Shown: positions 240-8,208 of the stretch, in pieces
Position numbering within the stretch: the first letter of the stretch is position 1
How the letters are laid out: every line of letters starts with the position of its first letter
DNA from: Candidatus Oleihabitans oleiphilus
Lineage (GTDB): Bacteria; Atribacterota; Phoenicimicrobiia; Phoenicimicrobiales; Stramentimicrobiaceae
Reading direction: 5' to 3'
Assembly: GCA_018054125.1 (NCBI GenBank)
Contig: JAGPKD010000005.1
Coordinates: 1 to 42,699 of the forward strand
Length of the DNA stretch: 42,699 nt
The notes under the pieces: model-generated
Told to the model about the DNA's origin: nothing
Seen by the model: the letters and a program-made list of their open reading frames with translations, nothing else
Database searches by the model: none
Program-made: the position numbers and the translations under genes

Positions 240-1243
240 ATGAGGAAATTTCTATTGACTGTCTTGACTATTGCACTGGTATTTTTTTGCCTTAACGGAA
301 ATGTTTTAGCTCAAAAAAAGTCCTGCATATCTACACTGCTTTTGATACTGAAGAAGCAAAATATTATATTGAAGCTTTTGAAGAAGAAACAGGTATTGAT
401 GTACAATGGGTAAGATTATCCTCTGGCGAAGTTTTAGCAAGAATTGAAGCCGAAGCAAGTAATCCCCAGGCCAGTGTCTGGCACGCCGGTTCCAATACCT
501 CTCATATTAATGCTGCTTCCAAAGGACTGCTGGAACCCTATAAACCCAATACTGATTTTGAATTACCAGACCTATTCCATGCTGATGACTGGGCCTGGAC
601 TGGATTCTACACCGGGGCAATTGGATTTGTTACCAATACTAATTTCCTGGCAGAAAATGACCTGGAAGCCCCAACCAGCTGGGATGATTTACTCCAGCCT
701 AAATTAAAACAGAATGTAGCCTTAGCATATCCTTACACCTCCGGTACTGCTTATACCACGTTTGCCACTTTAGTTCAAATGTGGGGATTAGAAGAAGCCC
801 TGGATTGGTGGGAAGAGTTTGACCGACACAGTGTTTTTCAATATACTCAATCGGGAACAGCCTGTATCGGAATGGTCGGCTTAGGTGAAGTGGCAGTAGG
901 AATAGCCTTTTCCCATGATATTTTAGCTAAAGGTATTAATGCTGGCTATCCAGTAGTTATGACCTTCCCTAAAGAGGGAACTGGTTATGAAGTGGGAGGG
1001 CTCTCTCTTATTAAAGGTGGTCCTGAACCGGAATTAGGAAAACAGTTCATCGATTGGTGTTTTATGGTAAAAGCTCAGGATCTATTCCAGAAATATAGCC
1101 GACTCCCGGTCAATCCCAAAGCTACCGTAGCAGAAGGCTCAGTCACCCTGGATCAAGTTAATCTGATTGATTATGACCATATTTTAGCTGGTGAAAATAA
1201 CGATGAATGGGTAACAGCCTGGAGAGATAGAATTGGAAAATAA
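240..1243 (+). CDS. ABC transporter substrate-binding protein, Fe3+/sugar-phosphate (FbpA/AfuA-like) family, frameshifted
   Basis: Periplasmic or lipid-anchored binding protein for the ABC importer encoded just downstream. GGAGG at 227-231 sits 8 nt before ATG 240, which starts a clear signal peptide (MRKFLLTVLTIALVFF, cleavage probably after VLA). The first frame breaks at CAA AAA AAG (312-320); the rest of the protein (VLHIYTAFDTEEAKYYIEAF onward, SSGEVLARIEAE, ending RDRIGK) continues in the -1 frame to 1243. Joined, it would be about 334 residues, normal for the family. The break lies exactly on an A_AAA_AAG slippery heptamer, so it may be a homopolymer indel, a true mutation, or recoding. 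AfuA-type relatives bind hexose phosphates as well as iron; the sugar-kinase and isomerase neighbours favour a sugar ligand, but this is inference. Confidence 0.8.
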
Positions 1244-1431: not shown

Positions 1432-3144
1432 ATGAATAGCTTCAGAAAAAGAAAAATCAAAGAAATTATCAGTCAGCTAACCTTAATCTGGAAAGAACCC
1501 ATACTCTTTATTTTTATATTACTTATTTTTTATTTCTTAATTACTTTCGTTGTCTTTCCTATATTCCAAGTAGTAAAAAATAGCATGTATATCAATGGTA
1601 GTTGGGACTTTTCTAATTATATAGCCATATTTTCTAAAAGATATTTTGTGCAGCCTTTTATTAATAGTATAGTACTGGGAATTTATACTGCTACCATTGG
1701 AACCATAGCTGGCTTTATTTTTGCCTATGCTCTAACCCGAACCCCTTTACCTTTCAAAAATTTTTTCCGTCTTACCATAACCTTCCCCATTATTTCTCCC
1801 CCATTTGTAGTTGCCCTGGCTGCTATATTACTTTTCGGGAGAGCAGGAAGTCTTACTCCCTGGTTAAAAAATTTAATTGGAAATTATTCCATCTATGGAT
1901 TGGGTGGACTGGTCTTAGTAGAAACCATTGCCTATAGTCCCACTGCCTTTTTGGTATTATATGGAATATTACAGGCTATTGATCCTTCTTTAGAAGAAGC
2001 AGCCATGGATTTAGGAGCTTCCTGGACAAAGGTGTTTTCCACCATAACTCTACCACTGGCTACCCCCGGTATTGCCAGTGCCTGGTTATTAGTCTTTATT
2101 CAATCTATGGCCGATTTTGGCAACCCCATGGTTATCTCCGGGGATTTCAGGGTTCTTTCAGTTCAAGCCTATCTGCAAATCACTGGTATGTACGACCTCC
2201 CTCGTGGTTCCACCTTAGCTATGTTATTACTCATTCCAACCGCTACTGCTTTTTTTCTACAAAAATACTGGGTTTCTCGAAAATCCTATGTTACAGTTAC
2301 CGGTAAACCAACTGGAGCTACTGTAAAAAATCTGGATTGGTATATCAAATTACCGGTATATGGTGCCTGTCTGTTATATGCAGCAATTGTTCTTTTGTTC
2401 TATGGTACCATTGTCTATGGTTCCTTCCAAACCTTGTGGGGTGTTAATCCTACTTTAACCTTAAAAAACTATGTAGAAATGTTTGAAGTTGGTAAAGATT
2501 ATCTTTTTGATTCTGTCTTCTTATCTTCCATAGCTACTCCTATCACAGGTATATTAGGAATGTTTATCGCTTATCTTATTATCCGTAAAAAATTTATCGG
2601 GCGTAGTCTAATGGAATTCATATCCATGCTCACCTTTGCCGTTCCCGGAACAGTGGTCGGAATTGGTTACATCCTTGCTTTTAATCAAAAATCTGCTCTT
2701 TTGCCTTTTATTTTAACCGGGACTGCCTGGATTATTATTATATTATTAATTTTTAGAGATATGCCAGTCGGTATTCGCTCCGGTATTGCGGCATTACAGC
2801 AGATTGATCCATCCATCGAAGAGGCATCCACTGATTTGGGAGCAGATAGTAATACTACTTTTCGCAAAATTACCCTGCCTATGATTGCTCCGGCCTTTTT
2901 CTCTGGACTTGCTTACGGTTTTGTAAAAGCAATGACGGCCATCAGTGCAGTTATCTTTGTTGTTTCTGGAAAGTGGAATCTTATTACTATTGCTATACTG
3001 GGATTTGTAGATAATACTCAATATGCTCGGGCTGCCGCTATGAGTATTATTCTTATCATTATCATTTTAATTGCCTTAGGTGTCATCCAGTTTTTGGTAA
3101 ACAGAATTGGCAAAGGGGTCCGATTAACTACGATTGTAGAATAA
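1432..3144 (+). CDS. ABC transporter permease, FbpB-like fused double permease
   Basis: Inner-membrane channel subunit, 570 residues, built of two tandem BPD_transp_1 halves with about 12 membrane spans in all. Each half carries the EAA loop that docks on the ATPase: EEAAMDLGASWTKVF in the first and EEASTDLGADSNTTF in the second, each followed by a TLP-M/L-A-P-F/G-like stretch. The fused arrangement and length match the Fe3+/AfuB/FbpB class. There is only a weak ribosome-binding site (GGA 7 nt before the ATG), which together with the preceding hairpin suggests low expression relative to the binding protein. Next gene, the ATPase, follows after 31 nt. Confidence 0.9.
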   Translation: MNSFRKRKIKEIISQLTLIWKEPILFIFILLIFYFLITFVVFPIFQVVKNSMYINGSWDFSNYIAIFSKRYFVQPFINSIVLGIYTATIGTIAGFIFAYALTRTPLPFKNFFRLTITFPIISPPFVVALAAILLFGRAGSLTPWLKNLIGNYSIYGLGGLVLVETIAYSPTAFLVLYGILQAIDPSLEEAAMDLGASWTKVFSTITLPLATPGIASAWLLVFIQSMADFGNPMVISGDFRVLSVQAYLQITGMYDLPRGSTLAMLLLIPTATAFFLQKYWVSRKSYVTVTGKPTGATVKNLDWYIKLPVYGACLLYAAIVLLFYGTIVYGSFQTLWGVNPTLTLKNYVEMFEVGKDYLFDSVFLSSIATPITGILGMFIAYLIIRKKFIGRSLMEFISMLTFAVPGTVVGIGYILAFNQKSALLPFILTGTAWIIIILLIFRDMPVGIRSGIAALQQIDPSIEEASTDLGADSNTTFRKITLPMIAPAFFSGLAYGFVKAMTAISAVIFVVSGKWNLITIAILGFVDNTQYARAAAMSIILIIIILIALGVIQFLVNRIGKGVRLTTIVE

Positions 3145-3175: not shown

Positions 3176-4264
3176 ATGAAAAATGACTTTTTGGAATTAA
3201 AAGAACTGGTCAAAATCTTTGGTAGTGGTAAAGATACTGTTACTGCTGTTGACCGGGTGAGTTTGAAGGTAAAGGAAGGTGAGCTGGTTACTCTTTTAGG
3301 CCCTTCCGGCTGTGGAAAGACCACCATTTTACGTATGATTTCCGGTTTCGAATTGCCGACCTCTGGTAAGATATATATTGATCAGGAAGAGGTTACTCTA
3401 ACTCCTCCTAATAAAAGACCTACTGCTATGGTCTTTCAAAATTATGCTCTTTTTCCTCATATGACCGTAGCTCAAAATATTGTCTATGGACTTAAAATTC
3501 ATGGTGAACCTCAACAGGCTGCTCTGGAAAAAGCAGAAAGAGTAATGAAATTAGTTGGTTTAGAAAAACTGGGCAATCGCTCACCATCTCACCTATCTGG
3601 TGGACAGCAACAACGGGTCAGTTTAGCCCGTTCTTTAATTATGGAACCTAAGGTATTATTACTTGATGAACCACTCTCTAATCTTGACGCCAAACTAAGA
3701 ATTTCTATGCGCCTGGAAATTAGAAAATTACAACAGAGGGTTGGCATTACTTCCATCTACGTTACTCATGACCAGTTAGAAGCAATGTCCCTTTCTGACC
3801 GGGTTGTTATCTTAAAAGAGGGAAGGATACAGCAAATCGGAACTCCTCAGGAAGTATATGCTCGTCCCAGTAATCGATTTGTTGCAGATTTTATTGGTAA
3901 GGCTAATTTTTTAGAAACAGTTATAGAAAAGGTTATCTCAGAGCAGGAAGTGGTAATTAATTTATTAGGACAAAAATTAACAATCCCAGAAGTGAAAAAT
4001 AGTTTTAAGAAGGATGAGCAGGTTTTGCTGGTGTTACGACCTGAATCTATTGGGCTGGAAAAGAAGAAACCTGATAGTATCACTGGTACCATTCAGGAAA
4101 TTGTATACCTTGGTAATCAGATGACCTATCTAGTAGAAATTGCCAACCAACTGATTACCATAGAATTGTCCAACCCTCAAGAAGGTGAATCTTTTCAAAA
4201 AGGTGAGGAAGTAAGTATAAAATTACCTCAAAGAGGACTTCATTTATTACCACGGGAGGAATAG
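3176..4264 (+). CDS. ABC transporter ATP-binding protein, FbpC/PotA-like
   Basis: Cytoplasmic ATPase that drives the importer, 362 residues. Seen in order: Walker A GPSGCGKTT (42-50), Q-loop FQNYALFPHM (87-96), signature LSGGQQQR (140-147), Walker B LLLDEP (161-166) with D-loop SNLDAKLR, and switch histidine in VTHDQ (196-200). About 150 further residues form the regulatory TOBE-type domain expected for the FbpC/PotA/MalK class. It is co-directional with the permease, and the TIM-barrel gene starts 2 nt after its stop, so the four genes form one operon. Confidence 0.92.
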   Translation: MKNDFLELKELVKIFGSGKDTVTAVDRVSLKVKEGELVTLLGPSGCGKTTILRMISGFELPTSGKIYIDQEEVTLTPPNKRPTAMVFQNYALFPHMTVAQNIVYGLKIHGEPQQAALEKAERVMKLVGLEKLGNRSPSHLSGGQQQRVSLARSLIMEPKVLLLDEPLSNLDAKLRISMRLEIRKLQQRVGITSIYVTHDQLEAMSLSDRVVILKEGRIQQIGTPQEVYARPSNRFVADFIGKANFLETVIEKVISEQEVVINLLGQKLTIPEVKNSFKKDEQVLLVLRPESIGLEKKKPDSITGTIQEIVYLGNQMTYLVEIANQLITIELSNPQEGESFQKGEEVSIKLPQRGLHLLPREE

Positions 4265-4266
4265 TT

Positions 4267-5064
4267 ATGAAACCGGCTATCTGCATAGAAATGCTCTATC
4301 CTGAATTTAGTCTGGAAGAAAAAATAAAAGCAATTACCAAAGCAGGTTTTTCTTATCTGGAATTCTGGGATTGGAAAGACAAAGAAATACCTTTACTCAA
4401 TTCTTTGAGTCAGGATTATAGTATTAGAGTGGTCAACTTTAGCGGTCAACGTCAGGGTAGCTTAATTGCCAGGAACACTCATTATAAGGTCTTTTCAGAT
4501 TTAAAAGAGGCAATCAAGGTAGCCCAAAAACTGAATTGTCCCCACTTAATGTTACTAACAGACCAGTTAGGAGCAGGAGGAGTTGTAGAAAATAGTTATC
4601 CAGAATTAACAAAAGAAGAAAAATACCACCATATTATTTCTGGATTGAAAAAGGCACTCACTTTAATACCCGATTCTATTACCCTGGAATTAGAAGCACT
4701 CAATACTAAAATCGATCATCCCGGATATTTTCTGGATAATATCGCTACAGCAGTCAAAATAGTTCAAGAAATCAATCATCCCCGATTAAAAATTTTGGCT
4801 GATTTATATCACCTGGGAGTGATGGGATTTGACTTAAAACAGATCATTACAGAATATCTCCCAGAAATTGGTTATTTTCATATTGCCGATATTCCGGGAC
4901 GACACGAACCAGGCACCGGTAATATAGATTGGTACTCGATCCTTCAATTACTAAAAGAGAAGGGTTATCAAGGATTTATCGGTTTTGAATATTCACCGGC
5001 TTACGATTCTAGCAAGTCATTACTTAAAATAAGGCAGCTCTGGCAATCTGTATTCCCTGATTAA
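4267..5064 (+). CDS. Sugar isomerase of the hydroxypyruvate-isomerase-like TIM-barrel family
   Basis: A 265-residue xylose-isomerase-like TIM barrel closest by motif to Hyi. The likely divalent-metal ligands are visible: E143 (LELEALN), D179/H182 (LADLYHLG), H205 (FHIADIPGRHEPGTG) and E241 (GFEYSP). The HIAD-PGRHEPGTG-I block is characteristic of Hyi-type enzymes. It starts 2 nt after the ATPase stop with GGAGG 7 nt upstream, so translation is coupled to the transporter. The true substrate may be a keto-sugar or keto-acid imported by the ABC system rather than hydroxypyruvate. Its stop faces that of the leftward kinase with only 16 nt between them. Confidence 0.8.
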   Translation: MKPAICIEMLYPEFSLEEKIKAITKAGFSYLEFWDWKDKEIPLLNSLSQDYSIRVVNFSGQRQGSLIARNTHYKVFSDLKEAIKVAQKLNCPHLMLLTDQLGAGGVVENSYPELTKEEKYHHIISGLKKALTLIPDSITLELEALNTKIDHPGYFLDNIATAVKIVQEINHPRLKILADLYHLGVMGFDLKQIITEYLPEIGYFHIADIPGRHEPGTGNIDWYSILQLLKEKGYQGFIGFEYSPAYDSSKSLLKIRQLWQSVFPD

Positions 5065-7914: not shown

Positions 7915-7960
7915 GACGTGGGCATAATGGTATGAGATTACCACGTCCGCCTCTTGTCTC

Positions 7961-8142
7961 TTAACACCAGTCAAGGGAGGTTATTTTGGTGAGATGATCC
8001 AGAAACTCAAATTGGGAAGCACCGGTTGCTGCTATGAGATTAGTTTTCCCTTTTCCTTAATAGCTTCTCTTAATATCTCTGCTGCTTTTTCGGCGGCAGT
8101 TTTGCCCATATTCTCTTTGGAATTCAGGATATATATTTTCAA
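7961..8142 (-). pseudogene. Remnant of a glucosamine-6-phosphate deaminase/6-phosphogluconolactonase-like gene
   Basis: On the minus strand a TTG start at 8142, preceded by AGAGG, opens LKIYILNSKENMGKTAAEKA and AEILREAIKEKGK, then hits a stop. One base later in frame the homology resumes as NLIAATGASQFEFLDHLT and ends at TSLDWC. The AAE-AAEILREAI and ATGASQFEFL motifs are the N-terminal hallmarks of the NagB/SugarP_isomerase fold. Only about 60 of some 240 residues survive, with one frameshift and no 3' part, so this is a decayed gene, not a working protein. It sits directly downstream of the second pfkB gene, with which it was probably once an operon. Confidence 0.72.
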
Positions 8143-8208
8143 ATATTAACCTCTCTGTTACTTTTTTTGATATATTTTAGCATAGGGAGATTCAAACTAA
8201 GAAAGTTA

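Follow-up and report, generated by a model that had tools for sequence, protein, structure and literature searches.

An A7 run that breaks a solute-binding protein gene in an Atribacterota draft genome: a candidate recent one-base deletion

A gene for an extracellular solute-binding protein is interrupted by a frame change at a run of seven As near the start of the window, by which we mean the whole stretch of DNA analyzed (42,699 bases, the entire contig C22, so that the window start is the contig start). Our first choice among the explanations considered, ahead of an error in the consensus and held with medium confidence, is a recent one-base deletion (A8 to A7) at the junction between the signal peptide and the mature protein. 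Two close relatives carry eight As and an open gene at this place, the gene has been under purifying selection so far, and changes of this kind are rare between the genomes compared; we infer that the cells themselves carry the deletion in their DNA, and that it is not confined to the consensus. The window belongs to a draft assembly (181 contigs, 1.67 Mb, 87.7% complete), labelled G000 below.

The gene and its frame change

The gene starts with the ATG at position 240 (MRKFLLTVLTIALVFFCLNGNVLAQKK), preceded by GGAGG at 226–230 of the forward strand, a putative Shine-Dalgarno sequence, and arrives at CAA AAA AAG TCC (312–323). Reading the zero frame from this ATG gives the codons GCT (309), CAA (312), AAA (315), AAG (318) and TCC (321), and the resulting ORF (240–413, forward strand; 57 aa) consists of a signal peptide ending in LAQKK and an out-of-frame tail that runs to a stop codon at 411–413. 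The seven As lie at 313–319 of the forward strand, with a G directly 3′ of them at 320, and hold most of an in-frame A_AAA_AAG heptamer (314–320). The mature protein, VLHIYTAFDTEEAKYYIEAF... (VLHIYTAF...), is encoded in the −1 frame from GTC (320) to the stop codon at 1241–1243 (307 aa); its translation and its profile and structure matches identify 320–1243 (forward strand) as the family-conserved mature part of an extracellular solute-binding protein (SBP_bac_8/SBP_bac_6). The earlier note had placed a frame change on A_AAA_AAG, with the protein going on in the −1 frame as a joined product typical of its family, and both claims were borne out. Since the two sides match a single open gene of another genome of the same genus (G001), the frame change is much too well supported to be due to chance. 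An internal translation start was considered for the mature frame and rejected: with no ATG, GTG or TTG before position 779 in this frame, it is unable to supply the whole mature protein.

The mature part scores 84.6 bits against PF13416 (bacterial extracellular solute-binding protein), above the gathering score of 27, and is accordingly a member of this family. The nearest NCBIfam model is PhnS2 (TIGR03261), an equivalog model whose cut-off of 392.75 lies well over the 174.6 bits obtained, and the nearest solved structures, 4r72 and 8x1a, are named as Fe3+/iron(III) transport components. The window protein resembles both the PhnS2 type and these Fe3+-annotated proteins in sequence family and in its order with a PhnU2-like permease and a PotA/PhnT2-like ATPase, but it differs from the PhnS2 type in scoring under the cut-off, so that any substrate assignment would be tentative. 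ORF and profile matches revealed three intact genes on the forward strand, which probably belong to the same operon as the binding-protein gene: a fused, PhnU2-like ABC permease (1432–3144), a PotA/PhnT2-like ABC ATPase (3176–4264) and a xylose-isomerase-like TIM barrel (hydroxypyruvate-isomerase-like; 4267–5064). A second, distant match to the binding protein (23% identity), containing one in-frame TAA, was found elsewhere in the genome (G000:C65:3861-4571).

The same junction in related genomes

Homologues were sought in 41 genomes, G000 included, and matches were obtained in 22 of them; the set includes one other genome of the same genus (G001) and no second genome of the window's species. 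All 12 homologous places at 81–96% identity (the window itself excluded, and G017 cut by a contig end) were open, with no inner stop. The junction was read in 16 loci. In G001 (96% amino acid identity) and in contig C8 of G022, a genome classified in a different family of the same order (also 96% identity), CTC is followed by eight As and the frame is unbroken; at the DNA level, these two copies share about 97.3% identity with each other and about 92% with the window. In G007, a family member, CAG precedes an in-frame run of six As, and the remaining loci have shorter runs or none. Among the genomes searched, only the window thus shows the frame change, and there is no conservation of the A run. 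G022 also carries an 85% identical copy on its contig C2, and the copy on C8 (L004, L033) represents either a recent transfer or a misbinned contig.

A homopolymer error or a recent mutation had earlier been preferred as the simplest reading, with the A run in related genomes named as a check. The relatives proved to have the gene unbroken and with another number of As, namely eight in the two nearest copies, which supports this preference and counts against recoding.

A comparison of positions 320–1243 with G001 showed that 65 of the 924 bases differ (7, 2 and 56 at the first, second and third codon positions, respectively), resulting in 12 amino acid differences. This distribution, from which it follows that decay has not begun, indicates purifying selection on the gene that lasted until very recently or is still acting. 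The lack of decay argues against an old pseudogene; it would be equally expected of a recent mutation, an error and a corrected allele.

The heptamer and the capacity to shift

In the relatives with eight As the junction codons are CAA AAA AAA GTC, and dropping any one A converts them into CAA AAA AAG TCC. The coincidence of heptamer and break is uninformative, because the loss of one A from an in-frame A8 yields A_AAA_AAG automatically, whatever the cause. The slippery-heptamer idea that headed the earlier note was therefore not upheld, the heptamer being a mechanical by-product of this loss. In 480 kb of G000, 366 open frames of at least 100 aa (126,324 codons) contain 67 in-frame copies of A_AAA_AAG, as well as 211 A7, 60 A8 and four A9 runs.

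Programmed −1 ribosomal frameshifting of the secreted binding protein at this site is the least probable of all the readings, and the uninterrupted relatives bring it close to refutation. The heptamer does lie in the right phase with the right −1 continuation, but this follows from the loss of one A, and none of the 12 homologous places has the frame change. In the passages of PMC5009743 concerned with this heptamer, its shiftiness in E. coli is ascribed to the sole lysine tRNA of that species, while ribosomal shifting may be less favoured where a second lysine tRNA pairs tightly with AAG; the two lysine tRNAs of Thermus are there considered perhaps relevant to its RNA polymerase slippage instead. 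Both tRNA-Lys(UUU) (L138) and tRNA-Lys(CUU) (L145) are encoded in G000, as revealed by a scan of 19 of the 30 loci obtained for 41 tRNA places, and this too argues against a programmed shift. The same holds for the dnaX gene of G000 (L131), taken as a control for the use of A_AAA_AAG, which has no in-frame copy. None is present in dnaX of G001 (L130), and copies are present in that of G007 (L132); G004 (L129) was left out of this comparison, its N-terminus being not DnaX-like and its frame possibly wrong. The window site shares the heptamer and its phase with the −1 frameshift of E. coli dnaX as described in part of PMC5009743, but differs from it in being unconserved, in the lack of a strong stem, in the presence of both lysine tRNAs and in having the shifted frame as its sole useful product.

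The structural evidence points in the same direction. Folding predicted a weak 7-bp hairpin at 337–358 (forward strand), 16 bases 3′ of the heptamer, which is predicted also in the unbroken gene of G001. Its energy is −6.9 kcal/mol, with a z score of −1.51 for the stretch 323–369 (17 of 200 shuffles fold as well), and the longer stretch 320–400 has a z score of −0.06; compared with shuffles, neither stretch gave any sign of an unusual downstream stimulatory stem. No AGGAG-like Shine-Dalgarno stimulator was seen by eye just upstream of the heptamer, and an Rfam scan of all 42,699 bases of the window gave no match. The earlier description of a weak stem at 337–358 and no strong stimulator is thus confirmed by folding.

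We also regard as very unlikely, if less so than a programmed shift, that A7 is a real allele from which some full-length protein is made through slippage of RNA polymerase, or less likely of the ribosome, on the A run. The A_AAA_AAG in which the run ends shifts strongly in E. coli (PMC5009743, in part), the gene is without decay, and Blochmannia genes with single poly(A)-tract indels may be corrected by slippage, according to a passage of PMC3017870. The resemblance to these genes lies in the single poly(A)-tract indel within an otherwise undecayed gene; the differences are that the break in the window occurs in one genome only, conserved nowhere else, and that homopolymer indels are rare in G000. 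Moreover, seven As are few for transcriptional slippage: in a large share of genomes, selection against slippage becomes visible at a length of about nine (PMC1088944, in part), and the A8 and A9 runs listed above are tolerated in open frames of G000. The two lysine tRNAs and the absence of a structure likewise count against this reading. A literature search on frameshifting in Atribacter, judged at listing level, gave nothing relevant. If this reading were true, A7 would be fixed in the population and kept working by slippage, which would represent corrective decoding in a member of Atribacterota.

Frequency of breaks and origin of the A7 run

The frequency of comparable breaks was estimated from G000 stretches of 480,478 bases (window included) and G001 stretches of 734,405 bases, in which genes were paired if they matched at 80% identity or more over at least 80% of their length; genes of lower coverage, e.g. 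the window case near 8043, were dropped. By tblastn, two of the 109 G001 open frames proved to be frame-split in G000 (the binding-protein gene and one in contig C109 near 13,630), and one of 108 was split in the reverse direction, through a 10-base tandem difference near the gene end. An earlier, smaller comparison (75% identity, 120 aa) had given 1/63 and 1/61. The background is single breaks in about 1–2% of genes and, with two of 109 genes split here, the break in the binding-protein gene is therefore a singleton of an ordinary kind.

The compared genes of G001 contain 109 runs of at least seven, of which 91 are identical in G000, 16 are changed by substitution and two are gapped, the latter being the A7 site itself and a run in a gene that was not flagged as frame-split by tblastn. 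Since runs of this length are kept almost everywhere, there is no indication of slippage correction across the genome or of an assembly prone to indels, and a genome with general slippage or with error-prone homopolymers was rejected.

Several other differences between the two genomes were encountered. The C109 gene near 13,630 (L118) has PEGA-like repeats (named by eye) and is split by an extra A relative to G001, outside long runs; this 1-kb stretch is 99% identical in G000 and G001, above the usual 91–96% of the window alignments. At G000:C109:7231-7911 (L072, compared with L080), the tandem difference near the 3′ end alters the C-terminus of a protein that is nucleotidyltransferase-like, as judged by eye from its sequence. 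Within the window, at 7940–8150, G001 has about 1.9 kb extra, and most of a 738-base open frame lies in this additional DNA; the window retains one end of this frame, itself with a one-base gap, and the difference is either a deletion in the window or an insertion in G001.

The constancy of these runs also bears on phase variation, in which replication slippage in the A tract would switch the binding protein between on and off states. An A8/A7 tract at the start of an exported-protein gene is compatible with such switching, and the mycoplasma ABC transporter operon gene p78 has been reported as phase-variable by localized frameshift (cited in a passage of PMC3711429). However, the tract is A8 in the two near copies and A7 here, and is not conserved past them (CAG and six As in G007, shorter or no runs in the others), A7 and A8 tracts are common in G000 genes, and 91 of the 109 runs are unchanged between the two genomes. 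We consider that there is only a slight chance of this reading being correct.

The A7 site lies 312 bases from the contig end, and that end is situated in a dispersed repeat. This repeat, mostly intergenic, occupies positions 1–150 of the window: a search with positions 1–1500 gave 76 matches in G000 and as many in G001, nearly all of them, among the matches listed, to bases 1–156. In the 480-kb sample of G000, 71 of its 76 pieces lie outside open frames of at least 100 aa. Some copies stand in tandem, approximately 82 bases apart (G000:C148:14361-14657), the repeat occurs also in G005, G006 and G007 among the matches listed, and no Rfam family matched it.

This position favours the second choice, a consensus or assembly error, in which the gene of the organism would be intact and one A would have been lost in the reads or in the assembly near the contig end. 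We hold this to be quite possible, though not the likeliest reading. It is consistent with a gene that is otherwise perfect and under purifying selection, with a single break adjoining intact operon partners, and with the draft state of the assembly. Furthermore, a survey of frame transitions (PMC3711429) states, in its part on unclustered but homology-validated frameshifts, that these are expected to be sequencing errors and not real indels. The window case resembles the singleton homopolymer frameshifts of this GeneTack survey in its restriction to one genome, its unbroken homologues, the one-base poly(A) indel and the lack of a conserved frame change, and nothing of note in the survey's account of this class sets it apart. 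This expectation counts against ranking a deletion first. On the other hand, the good record of the other homopolymers in the assembly, those of at least seven in the compared genes being almost without indels, indicates that the assembly is not generally homopolymer-poor and supports placing a deletion ahead of an error.

According to the recent deletion, our preferred reading, replication slippage in the sequenced Atribacterota population would have dropped one A from A8. Translation would then leave the frame after A7 and stop after 57 aa, for which reason the A7 allele would most likely be null or nearly so, while the downstream permease, ATPase and TIM-barrel genes would stay intact.

The loss of one A from an A8 run is an ordinary kind of event, and the value of the case lies mainly in annotation, where the gene is best entered as frameshifted in this assembly and intact in relatives, and not as recoded. 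It also provides a general caution: when an in-frame A8 that precedes a G loses one base, A_AAA_AAG arises exactly at the break, and this coincidence alone is no evidence of recoding.
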